Below are positions 2,950 to 53,745 of a stretch of DNA of 64,000 nucleotides, piece after piece. Position numbers and translations under genes: made by a program. Location: assembly GCF_028867935.1 (NCBI RefSeq), contig NZ_JAPQNS010000001.1, positions 186,001 to 250,000 of the forward strand, read 5' to 3'. Source of the DNA: Flavobacterium sp. SUN052. GTDB lineage: Bacteria > Bacteroidota > Bacteroidia > Flavobacteriales > Flavobacteriaceae. Every line of letters begins with the position of its first letter. Position 1 is the stretch's first letter. The notes beneath the pieces are model-generated. The model was not told the DNA's origin. It worked only from the letters and a program-made list of their open reading frames with translations, and made no database searches.

Positions 2950-3013
2950 GCCGTTTTAGGTTTCAACAGTCGAGCACAGAAGAGATGTGTTGAAAGTTGA
3001 AACCTGAAACGGC
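2950..3013. repeat. 18-base inverted repeat between galM and Uma2 gene
   Basis: Arms 2950-2967 and 2996-3013 (GCCGTTTTAGGTTTCAAC and its complement) match at 17 of 18 positions, the one difference being a G-U wobble in RNA, with a 28-base loop. There is no T run, so it is not a classical terminator. It is one of several long inverted repeats occupying spacers in this window. Confidence 0.85.
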
Positions 3014-3027
3014 ATTCATTACCTTTA
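2997..3027 (+). promoter_or_regulatory. Candidate promoter for Uma2 gene (TTG-N20-TACCTTTA)
   Basis: TTG at 2997-2999 and TACCTTTA at 3020-3027 match the Bacteroidota -33/-7 pattern with a 20-base spacer and one mismatch in the -7 box. The ATG follows 18 bases later. The -33 part lies inside the right arm of the inverted repeat. Confidence 0.35.
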
Positions 3028-3045
3028 CTCAAAACAACGTTTGTT

Positions 3046-3609
3046 ATGGAAGCTGCCGTCGAACATCGTCTGTACACTGTGGATGAATATCTTGAGCTTG
3101 AAAAACGCTCCGAGGTGAAGCACGAGTATATGGATGGAAACCTGATCGAAATGCCCGGAGAATCTAAGAAAGCCAATCGCATTGCAGTAAACCTGACCGT
3201 TTTGCTGGATCAGAACTTGCCAGATTACGACGTTTACGACCATGATGTTAAATTGCTGACAGTACCCGGCAAACGGTATAGGTATCCCGACGTAATGGTA
3301 GCTTCCGCAAGCGACGCTAACGAAGATGAATACGTAGTATATCAGGCTGTTTTGCTGGCAGAGATTACTTCTGAAAGTTCGATGGAGACGGATCATCACG
3401 TCAAATTGCACGAATACGCATCCATTCAATCGGTACAGACATACCTGATTATCTCCCAGAAAGAAGTATTAGTGGAGGTCTATCAGCGGCAGCGGCAGAG
3501 CAGCAAATGGGAGTTCTCGTTTTATTCTTCTCTAGACGATGTTATTACCTTGACCGAACCAGCTTTGACGTTAAATCTGGCCGATATCTATCGAAAAGTG
3601 AGTTTCTGA
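3046..3609 (+). CDS. Uma2-family (DUF820) PD-(D/E)XK endonuclease-like protein
   Basis: 187 residues, no signal peptide. The Uma2 fold is indicated by the N-terminal YTVDEYLELE plus HEYMDGNLIEM, then RYRYPDVMVAS (the conserved Asp of the nuclease core), VLLAEITSESS (the Glu strand) and the TYLIISQKEVLVEVYQR end. Uma2 proteins have a restriction-endonuclease-like core and are abundant in Cyanobacteria and Bacteroidota; their biological role is unsettled. The gene stands alone and converges on mgtE with only three bases between the stop codons. Assignment to the family is firm; nuclease activity is inferred from the fold. Confidence 0.88.
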   Translation: MEAAVEHRLYTVDEYLELEKRSEVKHEYMDGNLIEMPGESKKANRIAVNLTVLLDQNLPDYDVYDHDVKLLTVPGKRYRYPDVMVASASDANEDEYVVYQAVLLAEITSESSMETDHHVKLHEYASIQSVQTYLIISQKEVLVEVYQRQRQSSKWEFSFYSSLDDVITLTEPALTLNLADIYRKVSF

Positions 3610-3612
3610 AAG

Positions 3613-4965
3613 CTACAACTCCGCCAGCAGTAAATCAGCAATCAGGAAATAGACACCAATACCAATCAGGTCGTTGGCAGTGGTGATGAACGGCCCCGAA
3701 GCCACGGCGGGGTTAATGCCGATTCGGTTGAGGAGTAGGGGGGTAACGGTTCCCATAAACGAAGCCAATAATACCACCGCCAGCAAGGACGTGGCTACTA
3801 CCGGAAACAAACGCGGTTGCCCAATCAGAAATGTGTACGTTCCGGCGATGAGGCCAACTACCAGGCCGTTGATAATCGCCACCAACAGGGTTCGTAACAA
3901 CCGCTGACCAAGGGTTGTACTTAAACCTGATGTATCGGCGAGACTTTGCAGGATAAGCGAAGACGTTTGAATACCCACATTACCGCCTGTGGAGCCGATG
4001 ATCGGAATAAAAGCTGCCAAAGCCGCTACTTTCCCCAGCTCTGCCTGAAAGCCATTAATAACAGTGGCCGCAAGCAAACTACCCACTGCACCCGCAACCA
4101 GCCAGGGCAACTGTACTTTCGACCGCACCCAAACAGTATCATCTTCTTCGACTTCGCCCGAAAGACCGGAGATGACCTGAATGTCCTCCTCGGCTTGTTC
4201 CGTGATTACGTCCAGCACGTCGTCGATGGTGATACGCCCCAACAGTCTACCCTGTACATTTACGACAGGGATAGCGTCTAAATCGTAGCGTTGCATCACT
4301 TCGGCCACCTCATCCACGGGCCGGTAGGTTTCTACGAAAATGATGTCCTTGTCGTAAATATCGGCGATTTTGGCTGTTCTACGGGCCAGTACGATCTTCT
4401 TGAGCGATACTAATCCCAGCAACTTTCCCTGATCATCGACAACGTAAACCGAGTACACCTTTTCTACGTTTTCGGCCTGATCACGAATTTCTTCGATGCA
4501 GCCGTTTACCGTCAGGTTAACGTTGATTTTGATTAACTCTTTCTGCATCAATCCCCCGGCTACGTCCTCGTCGTAGTGGAGCAAGTCAAGAATAAACCGG
4601 GCTTGTTCGCGGTCTTCAAGCAGGCCAATGATTTCTTCCCGAATGCGGATAGGCTGCTCGTTAAGCAAATCCACGGCATCGTCGGAATCCATTACGTTGA
4701 CGAGGGGAGCCAACTCTGCTGAATTGAATGTCGCCAACAAATCGAGCCGTACAGCTGGGTCTAGATTAGCCAGTATTTCAGCCCCAACTTCGTTGTTGAG
4801 CAGGGTTAGCAAATAGTGCGCCTGATCAGTATCTAACTCATAAAGAATACCCGAAATATCGGCGGGGTACAGTCCCTCCATCTCGGTTCGCAACTGCAAA
4901 TCGTCACGAACGTCAATGGCCTCCTGAAGTTGGCCGAGGTATTCTTTAGTGAGCTCAAATGTCAT
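3613..4965 (-). CDS. mgtE: Magnesium transporter MgtE
   Basis: 450 residues with the full MgtE plan: cytoplasmic N domain of helical repeats (about 1-130, including LLATFNSAELAPLVNVM), a tandem CBS pair (about 135-260, with MQKELIKINVNLTVN and FVETYRPVDEVAEVMQRYDLDAIPVVN), then five membrane helices from about 285 to the end, containing the GSTGGNVGIQTSSL signature of the pore. MgtE is a Mg2+-gated channel of the inner membrane. It lies 45 bases downstream of ksgA and is probably cotranscribed with it. The intervening spacer holds an imperfect repeat. Confidence 0.95.
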   Translation of the reverse strand: MTFELTKEYLGQLQEAIDVRDDLQLRTEMEGLYPADISGILYELDTDQAHYLLTLLNNEVGAEILANLDPAVRLDLLATFNSAELAPLVNVMDSDDAVDLLNEQPIRIREEIIGLLEDREQARFILDLLHYDEDVAGGLMQKELIKINVNLTVNGCIEEIRDQAENVEKVYSVYVVDDQGKLLGLVSLKKIVLARRTAKIADIYDKDIIFVETYRPVDEVAEVMQRYDLDAIPVVNVQGRLLGRITIDDVLDVITEQAEEDIQVISGLSGEVEEDDTVWVRSKVQLPWLVAGAVGSLLAATVINGFQAELGKVAALAAFIPIIGSTGGNVGIQTSSLILQSLADTSGLSTTLGQRLLRTLLVAIINGLVVGLIAGTYTFLIGQPRLFPVVATSLLAVVLLASFMGTVTPLLLNRIGINPAVASGPFITTANDLIGIGVYFLIADLLLAEL

Positions 4966-4969
4966 AGGT

Positions 4970-5032
4970 AAAAGAGTAAAAGAGTGAAAGAGTGCCGAAG
5001 ATTCGCTCTTTTATTCATTCGCGCTTTCACTC
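4970..5032. repeat. Imperfect inverted repeat of AAAGAGTG words, ksgA-mgtE spacer
   Basis: The left part (4970-4994) is three tandem copies of the word AAAGAGT(G/A), and the right part (5004-5032) carries the complementary words CTCTTTTATTC and CGCTTTCACTC. Pairing is only partial. The right part runs into ksgA and encodes its last residues, SESANE plus the TAA stop. The architecture is like the CAGTGAGCAGT elements elsewhere in the window. Confidence 0.6.
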
Positions 5033-5847
5033 ATTAAGTTTGTCAATTCAACAAAATCTGCAACACTGAGTTGCTCCGCCCGTAGGTCCATAAACCGGCT
5101 GCCTGCTGCTGCTTCGGTAATGCCAAGCGGCTTGAGCGCATTACGGAGCGTTTTCCGGCGTTGATTGAATCCGTGTTTTACAACCTGAATAAATCGACGT
5201 TCGTTACAACCGAGTTCCTTGACATTATTTCGTCGAACACTGATGACCCCTGAATGAACTTTTGGGGGTGGGTTGAACACTTCCGGAGGAACCGTGAACT
5301 CGTATTTAACGTCGTACCAGGCCTGCAAAAAAACGCTCAAAATGCCATAATGCTTTTTGCCAGGGGGCGATGCCAACCGCTGGGCAACCTCCCGTTGCAA
5401 CATACAAACTACCTCGGTGATGCGGTCGCGATAGTCAAGAACGTTGAAGAAGATTTGAGACGAAATATTATACGGGAAGTTACCGATAATGGCAAATGGC
5501 TCTGACTCGGGAAGGCCGGGTAGATAATCGGCGGGCGTCATTTCCAGGAAATCACCTTCAACCAACCGGCTCGTCAGCGATGGAAACGCTTTTTTTAGAT
5601 ATACAACCGATTCGCTATCAAGTTCAACGGCATGCGTCTCGAAGTTGGTATTGGGCAGCAGGAACCGCGTTAGTACGCCCGTTCCGGGACCAATTTCCAG
5701 CACATGCCGGTACGGTTCAGCGTGCTGACCGCTGTGACCACTTAACAATTCAGCAATATTCTGGGCAATAGAGTCGTCGGTGAGGAAATGCTGTCCGAGA
5801 CTTTTTTTTGGTTTTACGTACACAGGCCGCTTGGTTTCAGGGCGCAA
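5011..5847 (-). CDS. rsmA: 16S rRNA adenine dimethyltransferase KsgA/RsmA
   Basis: 278 residues. It dimethylates two adjacent adenines in the 3' terminal helix of 16S rRNA during small-subunit assembly. Seen motifs: KKSLGQHFLTDD at the N terminus (residues about 13-24), the SAM-binding VLEIGPGTGVLTRFL, and GNFPYNISSQIF, the variant of the NLPYN catalytic motif. The C-terminal domain KHGFNQRRKTLRNAL is typical. It follows the unknown gene 5858-6349 by ten bases and precedes mgtE, an arrangement I recall as common in Bacteroidota. The last residues lie in a repeat element. Confidence 0.95.
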   Translation of the reverse strand: MRPETKRPVYVKPKKSLGQHFLTDDSIAQNIAELLSGHSGQHAEPYRHVLEIGPGTGVLTRFLLPNTNFETHAVELDSESVVYLKKAFPSLTSRLVEGDFLEMTPADYLPGLPESEPFAIIGNFPYNISSQIFFNVLDYRDRITEVVCMLQREVAQRLASPPGKKHYGILSVFLQAWYDVKYEFTVPPEVFNPPPKVHSGVISVRRNNVKELGCNERRFIQVVKHGFNQRRKTLRNALKPLGITEAAAGSRFMDLRAEQLSVADFVELTNLMSESANE

Positions 5848-5857
5848 AGGTACGGCT

Positions 5858-6349
5858 TTAAGAATTAAACAGACCCCAATCGTCGGGAATGTCGTTGGTT
5901 TTGTCGAAGCTATTAATCCATTCTACAAACAGCACCCGGAAATTCTCGATCTCGTCGCGCAGAAGTTTGATGTAAGCTGGTTCGGAGAGCTTTTCGGCGC
6001 GGAGGTAATTGGTTTGGGTGAGCAGTTCGCGGGCGTGAGTTTTAATAATTACTGCGTTTTCCATGCGGAGCGTGTATAGATCAGCACCCTCTGCCCCAAC
6101 AATTTTAGTAGGTAGCATCATGGCATTGGCCATCATCTGCTCACTCATCATAAGCACATCCTCTTCCTCATCGATAGTGCCGACGATAGCCTGAGTAATC
6201 TCCAGAATTTCATTGGCTTTTTTCAGCACAGGGAGTTGCTCAATTCGGCGGTTCTCGGCCTCCATTTCGCGTTGAGCCTCAATGGGGTCATAGTTACGTT
6301 CAAATTCTTCCCAATCAAATCCGTCCTCGTCCTCGTCGTCAAAGTGCAT
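5858..6349 (-). CDS. Conserved hypothetical protein, acidic N terminus
   Basis: 163 residues from the ATG at 6349; a longer reading would need a TTG at 6388 and adds residues without obvious structure. I do not recognise a named family. The first 25 residues are very acidic (HFDDEDEDGFDWEEFE), and the rest is predicted mostly helical, with a Met-rich stretch (VLMMSEQMMANAMML) and a C-terminal WINSFDKTNDIPDDWGLF. No signal peptide or membrane segment. Ten bases separate it from ksgA, so it is likely cotranscribed with a ribosome-assembly gene; a cytoplasmic role is probable. Confidence 0.75.
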   Translation of the reverse strand: MHFDDEDEDGFDWEEFERNYDPIEAQREMEAENRRIEQLPVLKKANEILEITQAIVGTIDEEEDVLMMSEQMMANAMMLPTKIVGAEGADLYTLRMENAVIIKTHARELLTQTNYLRAEKLSEPAYIKLLRDEIENFRVLFVEWINSFDKTNDIPDDWGLFNS

Positions 6350-6631
6350 GTCGCTCAAGTGTTTCGGGTGTACAGTACTACAAAGCAACGCAAATAGAAG
6401 TCATCAGGCAAGCGATTATGGATTTCATTATGTAGTAAATTTTAACATCGTTAATGACAAAATCACCTTAAATTGCCATCTGGTTGAGAAAAGTTGTTAC
6501 GCAATGAGTAATGAATACGCGCAGCGGAATAGTAAAAGCCTTGTGTATGACTTTGCGATTATGTGTCGTTGGTAAGTGAGGAAGCAACCTTGATTGGCGA
6601 AAGTTTGTCAATCAGACAGCAAAGGATATAT

Positions 6632-9205: not shown

Positions 9206-9261
9206 AGTTTGAGTTCTGAGCTACTTTGTCGACTTTTGGCTTTCGCATCTGATCAATTCCT

Positions 9262-9999
9262 ATGACCTATTGTCTGGGCATCAAGGTTCGTTCGGGCCTT
9301 GTTGCCATTGCTGATACCCGCCTAACTTCCGGCACTGAAGTGTCGAGTAACCGTAAAATTACCGTTCACGAGGTAGAGAACCACTCTCTCTTCGTTATGA
9401 CCTCGGGTCTTCGATCCGTGCGCGACAAGGCAATTACTTATTTTCGAGAAGTACTGCTTGAACAGGATCGCTCGTTCAACAAGCTCTACAAAGCAGTCAA
9501 TGCGTTTGGTGAACAGGTAAAACGCGTGGCCAAAGAAGATAAGGAGTCGATTATTGCCAGCGGTTTGTCGTTCAACCTCAATGCCATTGTTGGTGGCCAA
9601 CTTGAAGACGACAACGAACACAAGCTTTATCAACTCTATCCCGAGGGCAATTGGGTGGAGGTTGATAGTGGATCATTGTTTAAAGTCATTGGTAATTCCG
9701 GGTATGGAAAGCCATTGCTCTTTCGAAATCTCACCTACGAGACCAGTTTGGCCGAAGCGCTCAAAATTGGGTTTTTGGCGTTCGATGCTACCCGCGTTAG
9801 TGCCAACGATGTCGATTACCCGCTGGATGTAGTTATCTATCCCGACAGCAGTTTCCACATGACGGAGTATCGGCTCGAAAAGGACGATATGGATGAGATT
9901 TCGCACCAATGGAGCGCATTGCTCAATAATTCTGTTCGAAAGCTTCCTACGTACTGGATGGATCCTATATTTGAAAAAATCAAAGCTGGGAAACAGTGA
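9262..9999 (+). CDS. Anbu-type proteasome-like protease (ancestral beta subunit)
   Basis: 245 residues. Anbu proteins are Ntn hydrolases homologous to proteasome beta subunits. The N terminus MTYCLGI places the catalytic Thr immediately after the initiator Met, and Asp18 (IADTRL) and Lys32 (SNRKIT) occupy the positions expected for the active-site network. GNSGYGKPLL and FDATRVSANDVDYPLDVVIY are typical of the family. In many genomes Anbu sits with a transglutaminase, an alpha-E protein and a circularly permuted ATP-grasp protein; only the transglutaminase is present here. The last codons AAA CAG TGA are part of the left arm of a repeat element. Confidence 0.92.
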   Translation: MTYCLGIKVRSGLVAIADTRLTSGTEVSSNRKITVHEVENHSLFVMTSGLRSVRDKAITYFREVLLEQDRSFNKLYKAVNAFGEQVKRVAKEDKESIIASGLSFNLNAIVGGQLEDDNEHKLYQLYPEGNWVEVDSGSLFKVIGNSGYGKPLLFRNLTYETSLAEALKIGFLAFDATRVSANDVDYPLDVVIYPDSSFHMTEYRLEKDDMDEISHQWSALLNNSVRKLPTYWMDPIFEKIKAGKQ

Positions 10000-10131
10000 G
10001 CAGTAGCAGTAAGCAGTGAACAGTATAGCACAAGCAACTGTTACTCATGTGTGATTTCCTCGCTCAAGCGTATAGGCCGGGACTGTTCACTGCTACTGCC
10101 TACTGTTTCCCACTGCTCATTCTGTTCACTG
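9988..10131. repeat. Spacer-filling inverted repeat, CAGTGAGCAGT family (copy 1)
   Basis: Left arm 9988-10024 and right arm 10082-10111 pair as GGGAAACAGT, GCAGTAGCAGT and GAACAGT blocks, interrupted by one 7-base insertion; a further complementary tail runs to 10131. The arms consist of the reiterated word CAGT(G)A(G/A). The Anbu stop codon TGA (9997-9999) is inside the left arm, and the right arm ends six bases before the transglutaminase ATG. Confidence 0.85.
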
Positions 10132-10137
10132 AAAAAA

Positions 10138-15208: not shown

Positions 15209-15323
15209 CGATAAACAGTGAACAATTAGCAGCCAACAGTGACCAGTTTGCTTACGCTACGGGAGTTTTGTATAAGCAAGCTGTTCACTGCTGGCTGTTC
15301 GTTGATACCTGCTCACTGTTTCG
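15209..15323. repeat. Spacer-filling inverted repeat, CAGTGAGCAGT family (copy 2)
   Basis: The inner arms 15230-15254 and 15272-15296 (CAGCCAACAGTGACCAGTTTGCTTA and complement) match at 22 of 25 positions, and the outer AAACAGTGA words at 15213 and 15313 also pair. It occupies the whole gap between glmM and the convergent gene and contains that gene's stop codon. No T run. Confidence 0.85.
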
Positions 15324-15919: not shown

Positions 15920-16023
15920 TCAGTAAACAGTGAGCAGCCAACAATGAACAGTTTGCTCGTGCAAAACTCTTAAAGCGTAAGTAAACTTTTCACTGTTGGC
16001 TGCTCGTTGCTCATTATTCACTG
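15920..16023. repeat. Spacer-filling inverted repeat, CAGTGAGCAGT family (copy 3)
   Basis: GAGCAGCCAACAATGAACAGTTT on the left (about 15932-15954) pairs with a right segment at about 15983-16005, with two or three mismatches; the flanking AAACAGTGA (15925-15933) and TTCACTG words extend the pairing. The right end runs into the convergent nucleotidyltransferase gene and encodes its last residues (ISE) and the TAA stop. Confidence 0.8.
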
Positions 16024-18335: not shown

Positions 18336-18419
18336 CTGGCGCGGGCATTTGCCCGTACCCACACATAAAAGCGAGCGTATGCTCGCATGATTTTAGGCAC
18401 GGGCAAATGCCCGCGCCAG
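18336..18419. repeat. 21-base perfect inverted repeat, hmgA-hppD spacer
   Basis: Arms 18336-18356 and 18399-18419 pair perfectly. Each arm contains the self-complementary GGGCATTTGCCC, so a cruciform or two separate hairpins are possible. The loop contains another hairpin, GCGAGC-GTAT-GCTCGC (18371-18386). The element fills the spacer between two cotranscribed genes. It has no T run. Confidence 0.95.
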
Positions 18420-18434
18420 AAAACATCAACAAAC

Positions 18435-19577
18435 ATGGAAACTCTCGAACTTATTGAACCACAAACTGCGGTGCCTAATGTGGCCCCCAACGACTTTTTG
18501 CCGCTCAACGGCACCGATTACCTCGAACTGTATGTGAGTAACGCCCGGCAGGCAGCTCATTATTTTCAAACGGCGTTTGGTTTTCAACCGCTGGCCTATG
18601 CCGGTTTGGAGACGGGACTGAAAGACCGTGAATCGTATGTAGTGGTGGAGGACAAAATTCGCCTGATTTTGACATCGCCCCTGCATAGCAATACCGACAT
18701 TGGGCGGCATATCGACCAGCATGGCGATGGGGTTCGGGTGGTGGCGTTGTGGGTTGATGATGCTACGTCGGCGTTTGAAGAAACGACCAGTCGGGGAGCA
18801 AAGCCGTTTATGAAACCAACCCGCGAAGAGGATGAGCACGGCTATGTAGTGCGGTCGGGCATTCATACCTACGGTGATACGGTACACATTTTTGTGGAGA
18901 GGAGCCACTATGAGGGGGTGTTTTTACCCGGATTTAAATCTTGGAATCCATACTATCAGCCGCCCGTGACGGGCCTGAAATACGTGGACCACATGGTAGG
19001 CAACGTGGGCTGGAATGAAATGAACACCTGGACGAAATTTTACGGCGAGGTAATGGGTTTCAACCAGTTGGTTTCGTTTGATGATAAAGACATTTCAACG
19101 GATTACACCGCTCTGATGAGTAAGGTAATGAGTAACGGTAACGGCCGTATCAAATTCCCCATCAATGAGCCAGCTGAAGGCAAGAAAAAGTCGCAAATTG
19201 AGGAGTACATCAACTTTTACGAGGGTTCCGGGATACAGCATATTGCTGTGGCAACCGATAACATTATCGAAACAGTGGTGGCCCTGCGCGACCGGGGTGT
19301 TGAGTTTTTGCGGGTGCCTGAAGCCTATTACGATGATCTGAAAGGCCGCATTGGTAAGATCGACGAAGAAATTGAAACGCTTCGTCCACTAGGTATTCTG
19401 GTTGACCGCGATGAAGAAGGTTATCTGCTTCAGATTTTCACCAAACCTGTTACTCCTCGCCCGACCTTATTCTTTGAAATCATTCAACGCAAAGGAGCCA
19501 AATCATTCGGCAAAGGCAATTTCAAAGCCCTTTTCGAAGCCATCGAACGCGAACAGGAACTGCGGGGAACATTGTAA
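18435..19577 (+). CDS. hppD: 4-hydroxyphenylpyruvate dioxygenase
   Basis: 380 residues from ATG 18435; upstream in-frame codons belong to the spacer repeat. It converts 4-hydroxyphenylpyruvate to homogentisate. Two vicinal-oxygen-chelate domains are present. The iron ligands are seen as His in KYVDHMVGNV, His in GIQHIAVAT and Glu in PTLFFEIIQRKGAKSFG, the C-terminal signature of the family. It lies directly downstream of hmgA, so both consecutive steps of the pathway are encoded together. Confidence 0.95.
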   Translation: METLELIEPQTAVPNVAPNDFLPLNGTDYLELYVSNARQAAHYFQTAFGFQPLAYAGLETGLKDRESYVVVEDKIRLILTSPLHSNTDIGRHIDQHGDGVRVVALWVDDATSAFEETTSRGAKPFMKPTREEDEHGYVVRSGIHTYGDTVHIFVERSHYEGVFLPGFKSWNPYYQPPVTGLKYVDHMVGNVGWNEMNTWTKFYGEVMGFNQLVSFDDKDISTDYTALMSKVMSNGNGRIKFPINEPAEGKKKSQIEEYINFYEGSGIQHIAVATDNIIETVVALRDRGVEFLRVPEAYYDDLKGRIGKIDEEIETLRPLGILVDRDEEGYLLQIFTKPVTPRPTLFFEIIQRKGAKSFGKGNFKALFEAIEREQELRGTL

Positions 19578-19585
19578 AAATTTAT

Positions 19586-19673
19586 GATTTTGGATGTCGG
19601 ATTTTGGATTTGTTGCTTGCACCAAATAGGGCTGTCGTATAAGCAACAAATCCAAAATCCGACATCCAAAATC
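19586..19673. repeat. 33-base perfect inverted repeat, hppD-phhA spacer
   Basis: Arms 19586-19618 and 19641-19673 are perfectly complementary over 33 bases with a 22-base loop. Each arm contains the word GGATTTTGGAT(G/T) twice, and one further copy of the complementary word continues to 19680. The element fills the gap between the hppD stop and the phhA ATG at 19683. As RNA it would form an exceptionally stable stem within the operon message. Confidence 0.97.
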
Positions 19674-19682
19674 CGACATCAA

Positions 19683-20453
19683 ATGAACCAAGCGTACAAT
19701 AAATATACCCCCGACGATCAGGCGGTTTGGAAACTGCTTTTTGAGCGTCAAATGGCTCAACTGCCCGGCCGGGCTAGTCAGGCCTACATGGATGGGATTG
19801 TGGCGACGGGTTTCCCGAACAGTGCCATTCCGAACTTTGATAAGGATCTGAACCCGCGTCTGCTGCCCCTGACGGGCTGGCGAGTGGTGGCGGTGCCGGG
19901 CCTGATTGGGAACCGTGAGTTTTTTGAGCTGATGGCCGACCGCCAATTTCCGGCTACGACCTGGCTCCGCACCCGCGACCAACTCGACTATATACAGGAA
20001 CCCGACATGTTTCACGACACGTTTGGTCATGTACCGGTACTAACCAATCAGCATTTTTGTAATTTTCTGGCCGCCCTAAGCTGGATTGCGTTGAACCACG
20101 TTGACCATGAAGAAGCGATTCAGATGATCGCTCAGCTGTATTGGTACACCGTTGAGTTTGGGTTGATTCAGGAGAAAGATGAATCGGGGAAACTAGCGTT
20201 GCGGATTTATGGCGGAGGTATTCTGTCGTCGCCGGGTGAGACGGTGTATGCACTGGAAAGCGACATTCCGAAGAGGATACCATATGACGTGGCAACCTTG
20301 CTACAAACCCCCTACGTCATCGACCATTTTCAGGAGCAGTATTTCGTGATCGACTCGTACGAACAACTGTATCACTCGGTACCCGAGATTGAAGCAAAAC
20401 TGGAAGAACTGTTGGCAGTGAGCAGTGAGCAGCGAACAGTTATCAGCAAGTGA
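19683..20453 (+). CDS. phhA: Phenylalanine 4-monooxygenase
   Basis: 256 residues from ATG 19683; the open frame upstream is repeat sequence. It hydroxylates phenylalanine to tyrosine with tetrahydropterin and non-haem iron. The iron ligands are in PDMFHDTFGHVPVL (two His) and YWYTVEFGLI (Glu), and ADRQFPATTWLRTRDQLDYIQEPD is the usual pterin-side motif. It supplies the entry step to the tyrosine pathway. The last twelve residues (AVSSEQRTVISK) are encoded by a CAGTGAGCAGT repeat arm and are unlikely to be part of the conserved fold. Confidence 0.95.
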   Translation: MNQAYNKYTPDDQAVWKLLFERQMAQLPGRASQAYMDGIVATGFPNSAIPNFDKDLNPRLLPLTGWRVVAVPGLIGNREFFELMADRQFPATTWLRTRDQLDYIQEPDMFHDTFGHVPVLTNQHFCNFLAALSWIALNHVDHEEAIQMIAQLYWYTVEFGLIQEKDESGKLALRIYGGGILSSPGETVYALESDIPKRIPYDVATLLQTPYVIDHFQEQYFVIDSYEQLYHSVPEIEAKLEELLAVSSEQRTVISK

Positions 20454-20566
20454 TTAATAGAGTAGGTAAAATTCAATATCTTTCCGGCTAATTGTAAACT
20501 ATTGGCTGCTCGCTAGTAAACTACTCATTGCTTACTGTTGGCTGCTCGCTGTTCACTGCTCACTGT
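20416..20566. repeat. Spacer-filling inverted repeat, CAGTGAGCAGT family (copy 4)
   Basis: The left arm (about 20416-20450) lies entirely inside the phhA coding end and pairs with 20531-20566 through CAGTGAGCAGTGA, CAGCGA and CAG blocks; the middle contains another partial complementary copy (20503-20529). The right arm stops just before the marR ATG (20568). Confidence 0.85.
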
Positions 20567-23362: not shown

Positions 23363-24241
23363 ATGAAAACCATCTCACCGCAGGACATTCCATTCCAGGC
23401 TTTTTATCGGCTTCTCAACAGCTCGGTGGCACCCCGGCCCATTGCGTTTGTAAGTACTATCAGTCAGGAAGGCCATGTTAATCTAGCTCCGTACAGCTTT
23501 TTCAATATTGTTGGGTTCAATCCGCCGATGTTGGTTTTTTCGCCTAGTCGCAATCGGCATGGCGACAAAAAACATTCGCTGCTGAACGTGGAAGAAGTGC
23601 CGGAAGTGACTATCAACCTGGTGAACCACCAGATTGTTGAGCAAATGTCGCTGGCGAGTGCGGAGTTCGACCGACACGTTAACGAGTTCGAAAAGGCGGG
23701 TTTCACGGCCGTCCCTTCCGAGCGTGTCAAGCCACCCCGTGTGGCCGAAGCACCCGTTGCTTATGAGTGCCTGGTCCGGCAACTGGTGCCTCTGGGAGAT
23801 CAGGCTGGAGCCGGAACAATGGTGGTTTGCGAAGTGGTACTGGCTCATTTTCAGGACCACATTTTCAGTGACGATGGAGCTATCGATCCTCATAAAATCG
23901 ACCTGGTTGGTCGTTTGGGGGCCGATTGGTACGTGCGGGCGAATGATGCTGCTCTGTTCGACGTTGCCCGCCCTCAGATTGGCGTTGGTGTTGATCAGCT
24001 ACCCGTGGCTGTCCGCAATAGCAACATCCTGACAGGCAACGACCTTGGTAAATTGGGTAGCGCCAAAACCATGCCTACACCCGATGAAATCACTGCCTAC
24101 TCCCAATCTGAGGCCATGCTGGCTCTCCGCGACGAAGCCCGCTATGGTTGCCAGTACCTCCCCGATTTGCTGCACCTACGAGCCAAGCAACTGCTGGCAG
24201 CGGGGAAAGTGGAGGAAGCGTGGCTGGTAATTAGTCAGTAG
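23363..24241 (+). CDS. Flavin reductase-like FMN-binding protein
   Basis: 292 residues. The N-terminal half is a split-barrel flavin reductase-like domain (YRLLNSSVAPRPIAFVSTIS, NLAPYSFFNIVGFNPPMLVFSPS), and a C-terminal helical part follows (about 220-292). No signal peptide. It probably binds FMN and transfers electrons from NAD(P)H or acts as a flavoenzyme on its own. It closes the tyrosine degradation run, and similar genes accompany such clusters in related bacteria as I recall; a link to homogentisate chemistry is unproven. The stop codon abuts the inverted repeat at 24242. Confidence 0.8.
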   Translation: MKTISPQDIPFQAFYRLLNSSVAPRPIAFVSTISQEGHVNLAPYSFFNIVGFNPPMLVFSPSRNRHGDKKHSLLNVEEVPEVTINLVNHQIVEQMSLASAEFDRHVNEFEKAGFTAVPSERVKPPRVAEAPVAYECLVRQLVPLGDQAGAGTMVVCEVVLAHFQDHIFSDDGAIDPHKIDLVGRLGADWYVRANDAALFDVARPQIGVGVDQLPVAVRNSNILTGNDLGKLGSAKTMPTPDEITAYSQSEAMLALRDEARYGCQYLPDLLHLRAKQLLAAGKVEEAWLVISQ

Positions 24242-24386
24242 TAACCTCACCCCCGACCCCTCTCCTTCGCAAGGAGAGGGGAGACGTCAACGATAAACTT
24301 TTTTGTGAAGATTGCTTGAACGAGAGGAGTATGGACTGGTGAAACTCCCCTCTCCTTGTGAAGGAGAGGGGCAGGGGGTGAGGTTA
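24242..24386. repeat. 42-base inverted repeat spanning the whole convergent gap
   Basis: Arms 24242-24283 and 24345-24386 match at 39 of 42 positions. Each arm contains its own hairpin, CCCCTCTCCTT paired with AAGGAGAGGGG, giving a four-armed structure. The left arm starts on the base after the flavin reductase stop, and the right arm ends with the stop codon of the convergent lactonase gene. Confidence 0.97.
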
Positions 24387-25499
24387 CTGAATGGCTAAAC
24401 ACACCGGCGATGGCACCTTTGCCCGTTCTCCGGTATCGGTGAGGAGGCCTGTTTTTGGGTCGCGCTTGAGCACTACGATGTTGTCAGTATCCTGATTCGC
24501 TACCAGCACATAAGCTCCGCTCGGATGAATCATGAAGTTGCGGGGCTTGGCTCCCTTAATGGGCTGTTGGCCAATGAGTTTGATGCTTCCGTTTTGGGCA
24601 ATACTAAAAATGCTCAGCGAATTGTGGCCTCGATTCGATACGTACAAATGCTTGCCAGCGGGGTCAGTGTGAATGTCGGCGTGGGTGTTTTCGCCCTTGA
24701 AATTGGCGGGGAGGCTTGCCACTCGCTCTTGCATCAGAGTTAGCGAGCCGGTTTGGGGATCGCGACTAAACACGGCTACCGACGAACTTAACTCTTCGGC
24801 TAAATACGCAAACCGACCGTTGGGATGAATCGTGAAATGGCGCGGACCTGAGCCCGGTTTCAGCGACATTACCGGCGTTTTATTGGGCGTTAGTTTCCCC
24901 GTTTGCGCGTTTAGATTGTAGCAATGTAGTTTATCCGTCCCTAAATCGGCAATGTACACGAACTTGTTGTCGGCCGAAATTGTCGCTGAATGCACGTGTG
25001 ATTTCTCCTGCCGCACCTTATTGGGACCTTTTCCCGAAAACGACAAACTGTCGACCAGCGACCCCAGCGAACCATTGGGTTGAATTGCATACACTAACCA
25101 GCCTGCTCCGTAATTAGAAACGATAGCCCAACGCCCTGTTTTGTCAATGCTGATATGACAAGGAGCCTGCCCGAATGAGGATTTTTCGTTGATGGGCGTT
25201 AGAGCACCTGTTTTTGAATTACGACTATAAGCACTGATCGACCCGGCTTTTGTTGGTCCTGGCCCATCGGCTTCGTTGACTGAGTAGAGAAAACTACCCC
25301 CTGGCCGAATCGCTACAAACGACGGACTTTTTTCATTTTTAACACTACCTGCGGGTGTGAGTTTTCCGGTTTTTGGATCGAAACGAAGCGTATAAATGCC
25401 TTCGCTACCGCGTACGGAATACGTACCAACGTGAATCAGCTGGGCAGAAGCAGCCTGAAGGGTAAACATAAAAAGGGACAGCGCAAAAAAGCGTTTCAT
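24384..25499 (-). CDS. Secreted lactonase family (YbhE-type) beta-propeller
   Basis: 371 residues from ATG 25499; this start gives a Sec signal peptide (1-19, ending ASAQ), and the longer reading does not. Seven-bladed propeller of the bacterial 6-phosphogluconolactonase/muconate cycloisomerase family, shown by repeated blade motifs such as KSPSFVAIRPGGSFLYSVNE, PCHISIDKTGRWAIVSNYGAG and GPRHFTIHPNGRFAYLAEE. The exported location makes a role in the pentose phosphate pathway unlikely; it may hydrolyse other lactones. The stop codon lies in the arm of the 24242-24386 repeat. Confidence 0.85.
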   Translation of the reverse strand: MKRFFALSLFMFTLQAASAQLIHVGTYSVRGSEGIYTLRFDPKTGKLTPAGSVKNEKSPSFVAIRPGGSFLYSVNEADGPGPTKAGSISAYSRNSKTGALTPINEKSSFGQAPCHISIDKTGRWAIVSNYGAGWLVYAIQPNGSLGSLVDSLSFSGKGPNKVRQEKSHVHSATISADNKFVYIADLGTDKLHCYNLNAQTGKLTPNKTPVMSLKPGSGPRHFTIHPNGRFAYLAEELSSSVAVFSRDPQTGSLTLMQERVASLPANFKGENTHADIHTDPAGKHLYVSNRGHNSLSIFSIAQNGSIKLIGQQPIKGAKPRNFMIHPSGAYVLVANQDTDNIVVLKRDPKTGLLTDTGERAKVPSPVCLAIQ

Positions 25500-36964: not shown

Positions 36965-37062
36965 TGGAACACAGATGAGACGGACGTCCGCAACACGGAT
37001 TGAAACGGATTATTCTATCTGTGTAAATCAGCGATGTGTACATCAGCGTCATCCGCGTTCCA
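36965..37062. repeat. Imperfect inverted repeat with ACGGATT-type words, amidase-acylase spacer
   Basis: TGGAACACAGATGA (36965-36978) pairs with 37049-37062 at 12 of 14 positions. Between them are ACGGATTGAAACGGAT and ATCTGTGTAAATCAGCG words. The element occupies most of the 143-base spacer and ends 17 bases before the amidase stop. Confidence 0.65.
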
Positions 37063-40071: not shown

Positions 40072-40180
40072 TGGTCAATAGGGTCATTAAATGGTCATTG
40101 ATAGCCATTGATGGTCAGTAATAATCATTTTGTAAAAGCTACGAATGACAATTAACGACTACCAACGCCCACTTAATGAC
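40062..40180. repeat. Spacer-filling inverted repeat of AATGAC words, Gfo-MFS gap
   Basis: Arms 40083-40117 and 40146-40180 match at 27 of 35 positions; most mismatches are transitions spread evenly along the arms. The flank 40062-40078 is the word GACCAATGACTACCAAA on the minus strand and contains the MFS start codon. The right end stops seven bases before the stop of the Gfo/Idh gene. Confidence 0.75.
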
Positions 40181-41488: not shown

Positions 41489-41506
41489 TGTTTGGTAAGG
41501 TATCTA

Positions 41507-41590
41507 GGAGATTAGGTAAATGGGTGACTTATGATTGGATAAAGAAGGGTATTTCAGGGACTATTTACCCAATTTCCTATTTACCCATTT
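41507..41590. repeat. Inverted repeat of GGTAAATGGG words, SDR-Gfo spacer
   Basis: GGAGATTAGGTAAA (41507-41520) pairs with TTTACCCAATTTCC (41564-41577) at 12 of 14 positions, and TAAATGGGTGA on the left pairs with a second TATTTACCCATTT word (41579-41590). The repeat ends one base before the SDR stop codon at 41592. It fills most of the 103-base spacer. Confidence 0.75.
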
Positions 41591-46100: not shown

Positions 46101-46148
46101 TTAGGCACAGCTATTGCAACTATATTCAAAGTTGGCAAAGGAGTAGTT

Positions 46149-46430
46149 CTAGTTGTTATCCGTTCGCCTACTGGATAAAATGGCTACCACTTCAATATCG
46201 TTGCTGCCTATTCTATAGTATAAAATTGTCTGGCGGTTAATGATGCATTCACGGAGACCGGGTCTCTTTTCTGATTTACGATACAATTCCGGCATCTGAC
46301 TAATTCGCTCCAGTTTATCAGAGAGCAATGCCAAAAAATCAGTCTTCACGCGCTGCGACCACGCATCACTGAGGTATGAAATCAGTTCTTCTAATTGACC
46401 CTCTGCTTCTTTCGAGAAATAAACGGTCAT
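46149..46430 (-). CDS. RelE/ParE-family toxin
   Basis: 93 residues. The ParE-type fold is indicated by FSKEAEGQLEELISYLSDAWSQRVKTDF at the N terminus, LERISQMPELYRKSEKRPGLRECIINRQTILYYRIG and the final EVVAILSSRR. ParE toxins poison gyrase; RelE-type relatives cut mRNA on the ribosome, and this sequence looks closer to ParE. The start overlaps the stop of the upstream antitoxin gene by one base, the usual tight coupling. Confidence 0.88.
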   Translation of the reverse strand: MTVYFSKEAEGQLEELISYLSDAWSQRVKTDFLALLSDKLERISQMPELYRKSEKRPGLRECIINRQTILYYRIGSNDIEVVAILSSRRTDNN

Positions 46431-46660
46431 TATTGATACTTCTTCAGGATTTCTGAAAAAGGCTTCCGGCGTCCAAGCTCCAAATCGGCCAGGCCACGGT
46501 CTATAGAGGCTTGTTGATCGGATGACAGCTCATCCCAGAAATCTTCGGTGGGATCAGCGGCTACCCGACTTAGAAGCACTAAGTGAGCTTGTAAAACTGC
46601 ATCATCCTGTATTTTATCGATAAGCTGGTGCAACTGGCTTCTGAGTTCAATTGTGCTCAT
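46430..46660 (-). CDS. Antitoxin of ParE-type module
   Basis: 76 residues from ATG 46660; a TTG nine bases earlier is possible but weaker. Helical protein with MSTIELRSQLHQLIDKIQDDAVLQAHLVLL and a C-terminal tail DLELGRRKPFSEILKKYQ that probably wraps the toxin. No ribbon-helix-helix DNA-binding motif is obvious, as in many Bacteroidota ParE antitoxins. It precedes and overlaps the toxin gene by one base, which supports the assignment more than the sequence itself. Confidence 0.8.
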   Translation of the reverse strand: MSTIELRSQLHQLIDKIQDDAVLQAHLVLLSRVAADPTEDFWDELSSDQQASIDRGLADLELGRRKPFSEILKKYQ

Positions 46661-46740
46661 GGTTGTCAATAGTTGAGGTATAAAGATAACGGCCGTCTAC
46701 AATGATTCGTTTTTAAAGCTGCGTAATCAATACACATTAA

Positions 46741-48603: not shown

Positions 48604-48647
48604 AGGAATCATGAGGGGATAATTAACAAATGTAATAGTTTAGCAGA

Positions 48648-50360: not shown

Positions 50361-50383
50361 CGGATTTCTCAACCCACCACTCT

Positions 50384-51247
50384 ATGCGTAAACTATACTT
50401 TATCCTTACCCTGATTTTGACTGCCCCTGCGCTATTGGCGCAACCCCAAAAATTTCTGGAAGGTTGTGATCTGGCTGCTGCTGGCGGGAAATCCGTTGCC
50501 GAGACAGCCGTAGGCATGGGGCGGGTATTTTTGGGGAAGCCCTACGTACCCCATACACTCGAAGAAAATCAAACAGAGCAACTGGTAGTTAATCTTAACC
50601 AATTCGACTGCACCACGTTTGTGGAGACAATGTCGGCTCTGTCATTTGCCTGGCATGAGTTAGCCGATAAAAAAAATACTGCTCAGTTAGAAACGCTGTT
50701 TCGGAAATACCTGACCAAAGTACGCTACCGGAATGGGCAGATTGATGGTTATGGTAGCCGGTTGCATTATTTCTCGGAATGGCTCCGCGACAACGAGCGG
50801 AAAGGGCTCTTGCAAGATATTACACCCCTTCTGGCGGGCAACGTGACTGTATCGAAGCCCTTGTCGTATATGACAACAAAAACGTTCCGGTATCCAGCGA
50901 TGAATGATCCGGCCGTGTACAAGCAAATTGCCCAGATTGAGACTAGTTTAAGTCAGGAACCGTTTGCGTTTGTTCCCAAGAAAAACCTTCGCAAGGCCGA
51001 AGCTGACCTTCGCGATGGCGACATTGTTATGCTGTCAGCCGCTCGTCCAGGACTCGATATGAAGCATTGCGGCTTTGTGATCTGGCAAAACAACCGGGTT
51101 CATCTGCTTCATGCATCCTCTGATCATGGTCGGGTGGTGATTACCAGCCAGCCGCTGACCGACTATGTTCTGGCCAAAAAGCATTTATCAGGCATCCGCG
51201 TGGCCCGTTTTCGGACAGGAACGAGCTTGCTTACTGCCAAAAAGTGA
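50384..51247 (+). CDS. DUF1460 N-acetylmuramoyl-L-alanine amidase-like protein
   Basis: 287 residues with a signal peptide (1-19, ending LLAQ). DUF1460 belongs to the NlpC/P60-like cysteine peptidase fold. The putative catalytic Cys is in NQFDCTTFVETMSAL and the His in DMKHCGFVIW; LHASSDHGRVVI is a further conserved block. Characterised relatives cleave the amide between muramic acid and L-alanine in peptidoglycan fragments. The protein is probably periplasmic. A strong bidirectional terminator follows, facing sucC. Confidence 0.88.
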   Translation: MRKLYFILTLILTAPALLAQPQKFLEGCDLAAAGGKSVAETAVGMGRVFLGKPYVPHTLEENQTEQLVVNLNQFDCTTFVETMSALSFAWHELADKKNTAQLETLFRKYLTKVRYRNGQIDGYGSRLHYFSEWLRDNERKGLLQDITPLLAGNVTVSKPLSYMTTKTFRYPAMNDPAVYKQIAQIETSLSQEPFAFVPKKNLRKAEADLRDGDIVMLSAARPGLDMKHCGFVIWQNNRVHLLHASSDHGRVVITSQPLTDYVLAKKHLSGIRVARFRTGTSLLTAKK

Positions 51248-51281
51248 GTATTTATTAGTAATCGTGATGTAGGTAGAAACA

Positions 51282-51315
51282 AAAAGGGAACAACCGTATG
51301 GTCGTCCCCTTTTTT
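51282..51315. terminator. Bidirectional terminator between DUF1460 gene and sucC
   Basis: AAAAGGGAACAACC (51282-51295) and 51300-51313 pair at 12 of 14 positions with the two others wobble-compatible, with a 4-base loop, and T runs on both strands (51310-51315 on plus, 51281-51285 on minus). It can end both convergent transcripts. Confidence 0.88.
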
Positions 51316-51333
51316 ATTGATGTTCGAAGCTGA

Positions 51334-52551
51334 TTATAAGCTAGCTACTACCGCTTTTACTTTTTCGGCAGCCTCTTTCAACTCAACGGCCGACTGAACT
51401 TTCAGACCCGACTCGTCGATGATGCGGGCACCTTCGGCCGCATTAGTGCCCTGTAAACGGACAATGATTGGCACCGGAATATCGCCGATAGCTTTGTACG
51501 CTTCTACTACACCCGTTGCTACGCGGTCGCACCGAACAATACCACCGAAGATATTGATCAGGATGGCCTTCACGTTCGGGTCTTTCAAAATAATACGGAA
51601 ACCAGCTTCTACCGTCTTGGCATTGGCTCCACCCCCAACATCGAGGAAGTTGGCCGGCTCACCACCCGATAATTTGATAATGTCCATGGTAGCCATCGCC
51701 AAACCTGCTCCGTTTACCATGCAACCCACGTTGCCGTCGAGTTTCACATAGTTAAGGTCGTTTGAAGACGCTTCAACTTCGAGCGGATCTTCCTCCGTAA
51801 TGTCGCGAAGGCTAGCCAGATCGCTGTGCCGATAAAGGGCGTTATCGTCGATGCTTACTTTGGCATCAACCGCCAGAATTTTATTGTCCGATGTTTTCAG
51901 GACTGGGTTAATCTCGAACATGGCGGCATCCGTATCTACATACGCCTTATAAAGCGCCGTCACGAACTTTACCATTTCTTTGAAGGCCTCACCCGTCAAG
52001 CCCAACCCAAAGGCTACTTTGCGAGCCTGAAAGGGCTGCAAACCAACCGCAGGGTCGATCCACTCCTTCACAATTTTCTCAGGTGAATGCTCAGCTACTT
52101 CTTCAATGTCCATACCGCCTTCGGTGCTTGCCATAATTACGTTACAAGCTTTACCACGATCGAGCAGAATACCAATGTACATTTCCTTTGGCTCCGATTC
52201 GCCGGGGTAATACACATCTTGTGCAACCAGGATTTTATTGACTTTCTTGCCTTCAGGGCCAGTCTGGTGCGTCACCAGTATGTTACCAATCAGGTTCTTG
52301 GCAATATCGCGTACTTCATCAACTGACTTGGCGAGTTTCACACCGCGTTGCTCTGACCCTACTATTTGTCCTTTACCCCGTCCTCCGGCGTGAATTTGTG
52401 ATTTCACTACGACGAACTTCGAGTTGGTTTGCGCCATGATTAGCTTAGCGGCTTCCACAGCTTTCTCGGGCGATTCGGCTACGATGCCCTCCTGAATCCG
52501 AACGCCGTAGCGCTTCAGTATTTCTTTACCCTGATACTCGTGTATATTCAT
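51334..52551 (-). CDS. sucC: Succinyl-CoA synthetase beta subunit
   Basis: 405 residues. ATP-grasp N domain starting MNIHEYQGKEILKRYGV, with the nucleotide-binding VVVKSQIHAGGRGKGQIVG, and the C-terminal ligase domain with VNGAGLAMATMD, FLDVGGGANA and INIFGGIVRCDRVATG. It forms the ADP- or GDP-phosphorylating step of the citric acid cycle with the alpha subunit, which is not adjacent here. The length is slightly above the usual, due to insertions in the N domain. Confidence 0.96.
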   Translation of the reverse strand: MNIHEYQGKEILKRYGVRIQEGIVAESPEKAVEAAKLIMAQTNSKFVVVKSQIHAGGRGKGQIVGSEQRGVKLAKSVDEVRDIAKNLIGNILVTHQTGPEGKKVNKILVAQDVYYPGESEPKEMYIGILLDRGKACNVIMASTEGGMDIEEVAEHSPEKIVKEWIDPAVGLQPFQARKVAFGLGLTGEAFKEMVKFVTALYKAYVDTDAAMFEINPVLKTSDNKILAVDAKVSIDDNALYRHSDLASLRDITEEDPLEVEASSNDLNYVKLDGNVGCMVNGAGLAMATMDIIKLSGGEPANFLDVGGGANAKTVEAGFRIILKDPNVKAILINIFGGIVRCDRVATGVVEAYKAIGDIPVPIIVRLQGTNAAEGARIIDESGLKVQSAVELKEAAEKVKAVVASL

Positions 52552-52597
52552 GTCGGTTGTAACCGCATTGGCGGTCCGAAAAGAATGTAGAAAATAG

Positions 52598-52605
52598 TAA
52601 TTTTG
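52598..52605 (+). promoter_or_regulatory. Candidate -7 element TAATTTTG upstream of LolD-like gene
   Basis: Exact TAnnTTTG on the plus strand, 128 bases before the LolD-like ATG and in the divergent region with sucC. No TTG lies at normal spacing, so this is a weak call. Confidence 0.3.
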
Positions 52606-52623
52606 CGCGGCAAGTTAGCAAGG

Positions 52624-52730
52624 AGTTAGCAGTTAGCAGTAGCAGCAGACAGAAAAAGTGAGCTGCACATAAGGCTGATTACTACCAACACTATTCATAA
52701 CTGCTCACTGCTACTGCCAATTATCACTAC
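52624..52730. repeat. Spacer-filling inverted repeat, CAGTGAGCAGT family (copy 5)
   Basis: TTAGCAGTTAGCAGTAGCAG on the left (about 52626-52645) pairs with a right part near 52700-52722 made of CTGCTCACTGCTACTGCC. Pairing is less complete than in copies 1-4. The element ends just before the ATG at 52733 and does not extend into sucC. Confidence 0.65.
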
Positions 52731-52732
52731 TT

Positions 52733-53392
52733 ATGACCCCCTTACTATCCGCTACCAATCTTCAACGTTCTTACGGTACGCTGCCCGTTTTGCGGGACAT
52801 CAACCTCACTATTGCTACGGGTGAAATTGTTTCAATTGTAGGCGCATCGGGCGCTGGTAAAAGTACGCTCCTGCATATTTTGGGTACGCTGGATAGGCCG
52901 GATGCCGGGCAGGTACGCCTTGCCGATCAGGATGTATTTACACTGAACGATAAACAATTGGCTCGTTTCAGAAACGAAAAGATTGGTTTTGTCTTTCAGT
53001 TCAACAACCTGCTGCCCGAATTTACAGCTTTAGAAAATGTCTGTTTGCCCGGCTTCATTGCGGGCAAGCCAGAACGTGACGTGCGCCAACGGGCTAAAAT
53101 GCTGCTCGAAACCCTCGGCTTACCCGACCGTACGGATCATTTTCCGTCGCAAATGTCGGGTGGCGAACAACAACGGACGGCGGTGGCTCGTGCGCTAATT
53201 AATCAGCCGGCCGTTGTATTTGCCGACGAGCCCAGCGGTAACCTCGATTCTCATAACGCCGAAGAACTTCACAAGTTGTTTTTTAGACTCCGCGACGAAT
53301 TTGGCCAAACCTTCATCATCGTAACCCACAATGAGATGTTGGCCGACCTGGCCGATCGAAAAGTGACAATACGGGATGGTTTGATTGGCTAG
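52733..53392 (+). CDS. lolD: LolD-type ABC transporter ATPase
   Basis: 219 residues. Walker [11 protein letters not shown] loop [16 protein letters not shown], signature [15 protein letters not shown], Walker [14 protein letters not shown] and switch His in VTHNEM. This matches the MacB/LolD class (the stretch [13 protein letters not shown] is typical of LolD). The permease partner is not next to it, so the transporter is encoded at separate loci, as often for lipoprotein release systems in the phylum. Confidence 0.87.
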
Positions 53393-53618
53393 AGAGAAAA
53401 TGGCAAGCCAAAAAAATTGCAGAGGATTTTCTTTTTTATGTACAATTTTACACGTATATTTCGTTTTAACTATATTTTAACTGATGCTTATCCGTTGATT
53501 TCTAGCCATTTACTTGAATGATGAAAAATTTCCACAGTGTGGAAAACCATTCATAGTAACTTTTGTTATATCATTGCGTCGAAAAGAAAAGTTTTTCATA
53601 ACGTTGAGTAAATCAGAA

Positions 53619-53648
53619 AGCCAAGAGAGAGTCTCGCTTGGCTTTTTT
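53619..53648 (+). terminator. Rho-independent terminator in intergenic region
   Basis: AGCCAAGAGAGA pairs with TCTCGCTTGGCT (one mismatch, tight loop), and six T residues follow (53643-53648). It lies 227 bases after the LolD-like stop codon, further than normal for that gene. Confidence 0.8.
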
Positions 53649-53674
53649 GTTTGCCCTAAATTCTGGAATACCAA

Positions 53675-53745
53675 TAGCTCCAACTACGAAGTCCCACAAT
53701 ACACAGAGATTTTCTGTTTACTGTGGGACTTCGTAGTTGGAGCTA
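53675..53745. repeat. 24-base perfect inverted repeat
   Basis: Arms 53675-53698 and 53722-53745 are perfectly complementary; the 23-base loop contains a further ACAGA/TCTGT pairing. It ends 26 bases before the stop codon of the convergent GH13 gene. Confidence 0.95.

Follow-up and report, generated by a model that had tools for sequence, protein, structure and literature searches.

Palindromes at gene 3' ends of a putative Spirosomataceae genome as possible hairpin slots with changing sequence

Here we describe long inverted repeats that closely follow the stop codons of numerous genes in and around a 64-kb stretch of bacterial DNA (the window; contig C1, positions 186001-250000, in a genome of 8.1 Mb). 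We observed a bias in their position, one gap in which a palindrome persists while its words change among relatives, concerted change of the two arms, inversion of loops and a fixed polarity of two words. We consider it about an even bet (roughly 0.5) that certain gene 3' ends of Spirosomataceae are hairpin slots, in which template switching and the exchange of words keep changing the letters. According to this proposal, a long palindrome behind a stop codon would, once transcribed, fold into a stable RNA hairpin, which would most likely mark or protect the 3' end of the message and insulate the neighbouring genes, acting as a terminator, or as a stabiliser of the 3' end, that lacks a U tract. 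Selection would act on the hairpin and not on its letters. DNA synthesis would switch template between the arms, copying one arm onto the other and sometimes inverting the loop, so that a change in the word string of one arm would be mirrored in the other. Now and then a whole palindrome would be replaced by one of another word family, drawn from a vocabulary common to several genera.

The best-documented slot is the gap between the genes of an HPPD-like protein and of the aromatic amino acid hydroxylase phhA. In the window it holds the word palindrome GATTTTGGATGTCGG (19586..19673, score 66), with perfect 33-base arms, 3' of the HPPD-like gene (Glyoxalase domains; 18387..19577, + strand). Its right neighbour is the Biopterin_H (aromatic amino acid hydroxylase) gene, called at 19584..20453 (+ strand); the real start of this gene is probably behind the palindrome, judging from alignments in which most relatives begin at about residue 20-36. 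From 85 sampled loci, removal of 30 without a visible neighbour gene, 5 without an HPPD match and 10 duplicates left 40 distinct loci, 35 of which carry a palindrome of score at least 24 in this gap, compared with 3 of 400 mononucleotide shuffles. Three of the five gaps without an inverted repeat are only 11, 22 and 32 bases long, one has a 9-base stem and one a palindrome scoring 23. By eye, about 11 vocabularies occur in the slot (GGATTTCGG, GTAGAGACGC, GGAGGAAAGGG, GAAAGAGCG, GAATGAGTGATTGA, CAGTTTCCAG, CACAGAGACACGGAG and others). On a quick HPPD gene tree, the word classes, with "none" and "short" included, require at least 22 changes, and there are sister loci with unlike words, for example, L003 (GTAGAGACGC) and L084 (GAAAGAGCG).

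We also surveyed the neighbouring gaps of the same block at a score cut of 24, with some of the alignments beginning inside the gap. By the automatic cut, inverted repeats were present in 7/18 loci between HgmA and HPPD, 20/22 between HPPD and phhA, 4/22 between phhA and marR, and 4/16 between marR and the next gene. A gap with a median of -4 bases gave 0/14; for two further gaps, each represented by 3 loci, the counts were 3/3 and 0/3. The HPPD-phhA and phhA-marR gaps are alike in median length (81 and 83 bases, respectively). The cut misses known palindromes, two in HPPD-phhA (window and L001) and three in phhA-marR (window, G588 and L002, alias G589); after correction the comparison is 22/22 versus 7/22 (Fisher p 1.5e-6, for related species and thus non-independent draws).

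Genome-wide, the presence of a palindrome is strongly shared between close pairs of species. In the orthologous gaps of the two Rudanella genomes G588 and G589 (median 97.6% protein identity), both had a palindrome in 16 cases, one in 10 and neither in 56 (n=82); for the two Spirosoma genomes G612 and G632 (95.9% protein identity), the corresponding counts were 23, 16 and 68 (n=107). Selection for shape may operate across the genome, as we infer. Orthologous spacers differ among relatives in sequence, and near-empty and replaced sites exist among them.

Comparison of such sites indicates how the arms change. At the 16 sites shared by G588 and G589, the two arms of one site match at 0.90 (a figure favoured by the choice of arms through the hairpin search). 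The match is 0.60 for the same arm across the species, 0.50 for shuffled arms and 0.88 for the 30-base flanks; the within-site match exceeds the between-species match in 14 of the 16. In the Spirosoma pair, a 7-base insertion, TGATATA, in the left arm of one palindrome is accompanied by its mirror image in the right arm. At another site, where both palindromes are near perfect, there are 7 substitutions, all mirrored, and 0 one-sided. Palindromes occur in both species at 39 site pairs, and the 30 alignable pairs contain 30 mirrored columns, 93 one-sided columns and 10 others. Five of the mirrored columns are the 7-base insertion misaligned as substitutions; under independent change about 1 mirrored column is expected, as estimated from 93 one-sided over ~821 columns.

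Loops of at least 8 bases were direct in 11 cases, inverted in 3 and unrelated in 7 between G612 and G632, and direct in 5, inverted in 0 and unrelated in 8 between G588 and G589. Control 14-mers from gaps without palindromes, judged by a stricter cut, were direct in 557 cases and inverted in 1 out of 1103 tried. The inverted share is thus 3/19 of related loops versus 1/558 of matched 14-mers (Fisher p 1e-4), with all 3 in the Spirosoma pair (3/14; 0/5 in Rudanella); one of the three is short (8 bases) and within a fixed palindrome. Two of five one-sided loops score higher inverted, one of them clearly, and the clear one is at a site where one species alone passes the cut. When seven additional pairs of 20-kb loci were compared, most loops were unrelated. 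An inverted loop between L009 and L010 (score 0.67) was too weak and was left uncounted. A comparison of each arm with its own partner and with the best arm of another locus was not used, as its outcome (the own arm wins in 6/14 to 13/15 by family) is confounded both by end gaps being free and by the choice of the best among many arms. Template switching in yeast is reported to homogenise the arms of inverted repeats and to invert their spacers (PMC8604942). Our analysis of the mirrored changes and inverted loops supports the view that they are signatures of this kind; template switching, proposed in the preliminary description of this DNA, is thereby supported as a way in which arms stay matched and are rewritten.

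To place these sites in a wider census, we analysed C1 to position 1,640,000 (1.64 Mb, window included), where a simple codon model called 1248 genes (90% coding). With strict search settings, 116 inverted repeats were found, compared with 0 in one Markov-3 control, and 111 of the 116 are less than half coding; the palindromes are therefore not confined to the window, and for the most part they are non-coding. A gapped hairpin search at a score of at least 28 found hairpins in 179/834 gaps versus 0/834 shuffled gaps, and in 205/918 gaps of at least 20 bases when longer gaps were tiled in. They occupy 62/139 convergent, 128/586 co-directional and 15/193 divergent gaps. Co-directional hairpins are closer to the upstream stop codon in 107/128 cases, at a median distance of 10 bases, and this bias persists in gaps longer than 150 bases (58/71). 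As a description, the earlier phrase "targeted to gene ends" is therefore apt.

Words were picked after the arms had been seen, and the word classes were assigned with loose regular expressions and by eye. A first sorting gave 90 word palindromes, at least 4 of them misplaced, and a recount gave 86; the first sorting underlies the T-run, terminator, median-loop, stop-codon, loop-motif and T-fraction figures given below. In the recount, the census comprises 86 word palindromes in seven families, 31 fixed or REP-like palindromes and 88 in neither group, part of them terminator-like. This agrees with the earlier reading of several families with one architecture, to which fixed families and ordinary terminators have to be added. 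The 86 word palindromes are co-directional in 59 cases, convergent in 21 and divergent in 6. They adjoin 101 gene 3' ends; the palindrome touches or overlaps 36 of these, and the distance is at most 15 bases for 85. Reiteration within the arms was found in 69 of the 205 palindromes at p<=0.05 and in 46 at p<=0.02; the best periods among these 46 were 8 (13 palindromes), 7 (9), 10 (9) and others.

The order of the words is a real property, because a palindrome of the form W-loop-W' reads alike on both strands. The pattern GTGAAAGAG N10-40 CTCTTTCAC gave ~507 matches in 45 of 222 genomes of the family, with overlapping matches of one palindrome counted apart, and the opposite order gave 0 matches in the 222 genomes. 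Similarly, ATGAGTGA N10-40 TCACTCAT gave ~489 matches in 36/36 genomes of one genus, and the opposite order 0 in these 36, where a backward-read control of the opposite pattern gave 21. In C1, the left arm has more G than C in 77 of the 86 word palindromes and more C than G in 4. Random foldback of word arrays is expected to generate both orders. Either the words are thus inherited through the copying of existing palindromes, or a process or selection with polarity is at work. We considered the supply of stop codons as the cause of polarity and rejected it: 5' arms have 7.8 stops per 100 bases and 3' arms 3.9, shuffled arms have 7.0 and 4.0, so that the difference is largely one of composition, and three of the seven word families run the opposite way. 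The loop motif GCTGACGC was likewise discarded as a general feature, being present in only 3/90 word loops of C1 and 8/35 loops of the HPPD slot.

An RNA 3'-end function of the hairpins has about even odds in our estimation, based on their position and on a slight surplus of G-U over A-C mismatches. In co-directional palindromes of all kinds, the arms as read on the transcribed strand contain 118 G-U versus 79 A-C mismatches (p 0.007). Word palindromes after the recount contain 72 versus 51 (p 0.07), or 27 versus 12 when counted per palindrome (p 0.02), and convergent palindromes 17 versus 14. The hairpins might control message ends, as the preliminary description had suggested.

Several observations weigh against the proposed slots. 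The G-U excess is small, and by counts it is below significance in the recounted word set; it is absent in relatives (50 versus 46), and transcription-linked C-to-T change could be another source of it. There is no clear exclusion between word palindromes and T-run terminators, which occur in 2/22 convergent gaps with a word palindrome and in 13/72 without an inverted repeat. One divergent gap of the HPPD block (16994/17137) has an inverted repeat in 6/17 loci at score 24. The shared vocabulary and its polarity are beyond what template switching alone creates. Furthermore, sharing of presence was not significant between G000 (the genome of the window) and G588 (both 4, one 8, neither 18, n=30, p 0.16) or between G000 and G589 (both 5, one 6, neither 14, n=25, p 0.06). 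Because of this lack of significant sharing between G000 and Rudanella, a long-lived slot is evident in the HPPD gap alone and only suggested elsewhere.

A different explanation, which we regard as somewhat unlikely, is that the palindromes are small selfish elements like REP/REPIN or MITEs, which a transposase would spread and which would be found at gene ends since they are harmful elsewhere, with no benefit to the host. Sequence evidence suggests that part of the census is REP-like, and here the earlier proposal of small mobile elements has support. In L057, palindromes of the GTACGRTGGATTTG fixed family (GTACGGTGGATTTGTAATCCGCCGTGA; the family is also in C1) lie at 1125-1215 and 1816-1888, on both sides of an open reading frame (ORF; 1180-1815) that matches Y1_Tnp weakly and in part (24.8 bits, cut-off 23); this may be a RAYT with its REPIN. 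The genome has four Y1_Tnp matches, GACTCCGCTCAG elements occur as 120-base copies, the best at 84-90% identity, and 4 loci carry GTAGAGACGC palindromes in the HPPD slot, or 5 if a looser one is counted. Fixed polarity would fit common descent of each word family, and the three short HPPD gaps without an inverted repeat are in keeping with insertion. Observations on the word families count against it: among the best inter-locus matches listed for word palindromes of C1, none is at least 35 bases long at 85% identity or more, no transposase is tied to any word, and no word palindrome was near Y1_Tnp at the four Y1_Tnp loci examined. Tolerance alone also leaves the 22 versus 7 of 22 loci unexplained, unless insertion prefers existing hairpins or one particular gap.

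It is quite unlikely, in our judgement, that the palindromes are neutral products of template switching and slippage in untranslated spacers, with arms matched by the mutation process only. Mirrored changes and inverted loops, in line with the yeast report (PMC8604942), would be accounted for, as would the lack of significant sharing of presence over the larger distance. Blind local mutation would not be expected, however, to produce the absolute polarity of two words, the bias to the stop side, a vocabulary spanning genera or the HPPD slot. Least probable of all, and very improbable to us, is that these are ordinary intrinsic terminators with unusually long stems. Placement behind stop codons and between convergent genes is as expected of terminators, poly-U trails are described by one study as unneeded for hairpin termination in its 13 genomes (PMC8355165), and a T run follows 13/32 unclassified convergent palindromes, which form an ordinary part of the census. 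By contrast, a T run follows only 2/59 co-directional and 2/22 convergent word palindromes (4/81, long gaps left out), and a looser test found TTTT near the end in 6 of the 46 reiterated palindromes. The T fraction behind word hairpins, 0.323, equals that before them, and four word families out of seven have loops with a median length of 14-29 bases. We prefer the proposal of hairpin slots at gene 3' ends to these alternatives. In a stronger form, which we consider unlikely as a whole, the palindromes would be sequence-agnostic gene-end elements: the hairpin alone would be selected, both arms would be rewritten by template switching, and the words of a small genus-spanning vocabulary, invariably placed in the 5' arm, would be exchanged between slots by a copying machinery acting with fixed strand polarity at gene 3' ends.

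The nearest published case is that of the heptamer repeats of Xanthomonas (GGGAATC) and Nostoc (GGGGA(C/T)T), with 70 and 75 inverted pairs, respectively (PMC4692102, 2015). They are described there as differing in length and sequence among close species, and the authors state that they could identify no regulatory role. The C1 word palindromes share with them a tandem short word with a unit of about 7 bases, proximity to stop codons, rarity between divergent genes and, by our reading of their polarity, the G-richer word in the left arm. In Xanthomonas and Nostoc, there is one word type per genome, which that study reads as a quadruplex former, whereas here about seven vocabularies occur in one contig, words are swapped at one slot, and there is copying from arm to arm and loop inversion. 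By sight, GGG is absent from GTGAAAGAG, CAGTGAGCAG, GTCATT and ATGAGTGA, and present in GGTAATTGGG.

REP, BIME and REPIN elements with their RAYT (PMC3733652, PMC3116915) are also spacer palindromes between co-directional and convergent genes, mostly downstream of genes (PMC3733652); the location of one of our fixed families, on both sides of an ORF that weakly matches Y1_Tnp, may be comparable. Word palindromes are unlike them in having no conserved core, tag or near-identical units. The TAACTGA heptamers of Beggiatoaceae, Cyanobacteria and Bacteroidetes are intergenic reiterated 7-base words as well, but they are reported as direct repeats, most of which, in the main genome of that study, closely precede start codons (PMC4679880). 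Template switching at imperfect inverted repeats in yeast (PMC8604942) and E. coli (PMC7202029) resembles our findings in the homogenisation of arms and the inversion of spacers, the latter found here in one of two species pairs only. Those reports concern mutation at inverted repeats inside genes or reporters, whereas here the process seems to go on continually at numerous gene ends. In a literature search, with most subscription papers outside its coverage, none of the titles and abstracts dealt with the swapping of words at conserved slots.

Other fixed palindromes were observed as well. An array with GGTCGCTWAVGCGAC-like cores at L055:651-1282 adjoins another Y1_Tnp gene. Fixed palindromes GGGCTTCGACTCCGCTCAGCCTGAC are located in C1 at ~431587, 487063, 497345, 564643, 839295, 849748 and further positions; several carry TTGCTGACGC at the outer end, and TTGCTGACGC has 20 intergenic versus 6 coding occurrences in C1.

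Within the window, inverted repeats had been described for 14 spacers. The gapped-hairpin score of each spacer was compared with the scores of 200 dinucleotide-shuffled versions of it, and the description stood: in 11 of the 14 (2950, 9988, 15209, 15920, 18336, 19586, 20416, 24242, 40062, 41507 and 53675) no shuffle reached the score, and in 3 (4970, 36965 and 52624) 1/200 shuffles reached it, which makes these marginal taken singly. A repeat finder for pairs of at least 18 bases returned 9 of the 14, with 4970, 36965, 40062, 41507 and 52624 missing from its output. The lack of T runs was confirmed for the + strand, with no TTTT within ~10 bases past the right arm in 14/14, and was judged by eye only for the - strand. 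Arms of reiterated words were evident for GATTTTGGATGTCGGATTTTGG at 19586, for CAGTGAGCAGTGAGCAG and variants at 20416, 9987 and 15932, and for GTCATT at 40083. The palindromes at 24242 and 18336 are rich in G+C, and the one at 53675 has no clear reiteration; the 14 spacers are thus of mixed kind. An Rfam scan of the window gave 0 matches at the gathering score.

The inverted repeat at 2949..3014, with no clear word, lies 3' of the aldose epimerase gene (1648-2928, + strand; score 34, 0/200 shuffles). Between two - strand genes, the word palindrome AAAGAGTGAAAGAGTG (4971..5019; score 21, marginal) overlaps the end of the RrnaAD gene (5011-5847). The left arm of CAGTGAGCAGTAGCAGTAAGCAGT (9987..10112) overlaps the end of the gene at 9262-9999, and AACAGTGAACAATTAGCAGCCAACAGTG (15213..15321) is 3' of a phosphomannomutase-like gene. 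The word palindrome GAGCAGCCAACAATGAACAG (15932..16005) is between convergent genes, and G588 has another palindrome in the same gap. At 18336..18419, between the HgmA-like and HPPD genes, the G+C-rich palindrome is in the gap for which 7/18 orthologous loci were positive. The left arm of CAGTGAGCAGTGAGCAGCGAACAG (20416..20565) overlaps the end of the Biopterin_H gene; at 20416-20453 the arm enters the coding end, and the repeat word spells the last residues of the protein.

Further along, the C-rich palindrome CCTCACCCCCGACCCCTCTCC...GGAGAGGGG (24240..24388), between convergent genes, is one of 14 C-rich palindromes in C1 lumped by a regular expression. Three palindromes are between - strand genes: a degenerate one with CACGGATTGAAACGGATT words (36965..37062; score 22, marginal), the word palindrome GTCATT (40083..40180; score 30, 0/200 shuffles) and a weak one of GGTAAATGGGT words (41505..41579; score 24, 0/200 shuffles). 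The weak word palindrome AGTTAGCAGTAGCAG (52626..52720; score 25, marginal) is between divergent genes and is an exception to the position rule. The palindrome TAGCTCCAACTACGAAGTCCC (53675..53745), with 33-base arms, is between convergent genes. In addition to those described earlier, a palindrome at 59210-59260 (AAAATGGCCAGTGTTTGT...) lies between convergent genes; its ends carry runs of A and T, and in appearance it is a common terminator of the bidirectional type.

The proteins of the window and the gene order around HPPD fit Spirosomataceae, and the block is common to Rudanella paleaurantiibacter (L002) and a Cytophagales metagenome-assembled genome (L008) at ~73-94% protein identity. HPPD is 88-92% identical to that of Rudanella-group genomes, versus 64-71% to that of the genomes grouped as the same genus. 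Judged by these sequences, the genome is that of a Spirosomataceae relative of Rudanella, and it may be misfiled in its genus grouping.

In conclusion, the shape of a gene end can outlast its sequence, as one and the same gap can contain unrelated palindromes in sister species (median 96-98% protein identity). The usual search for non-coding function relies on conserved sequence or slow compensatory change. If the hairpins do act at the RNA level, these palindromes would constitute a numerous class of 3'-end elements that escape searches based on alignment. They provide many natural, replicated sites for measuring template switching at palindromes in bacteria. The fixed polarity of the words constrains models of their spread and ties the elements to the unexplained heptamers of Xanthomonas and Nostoc.

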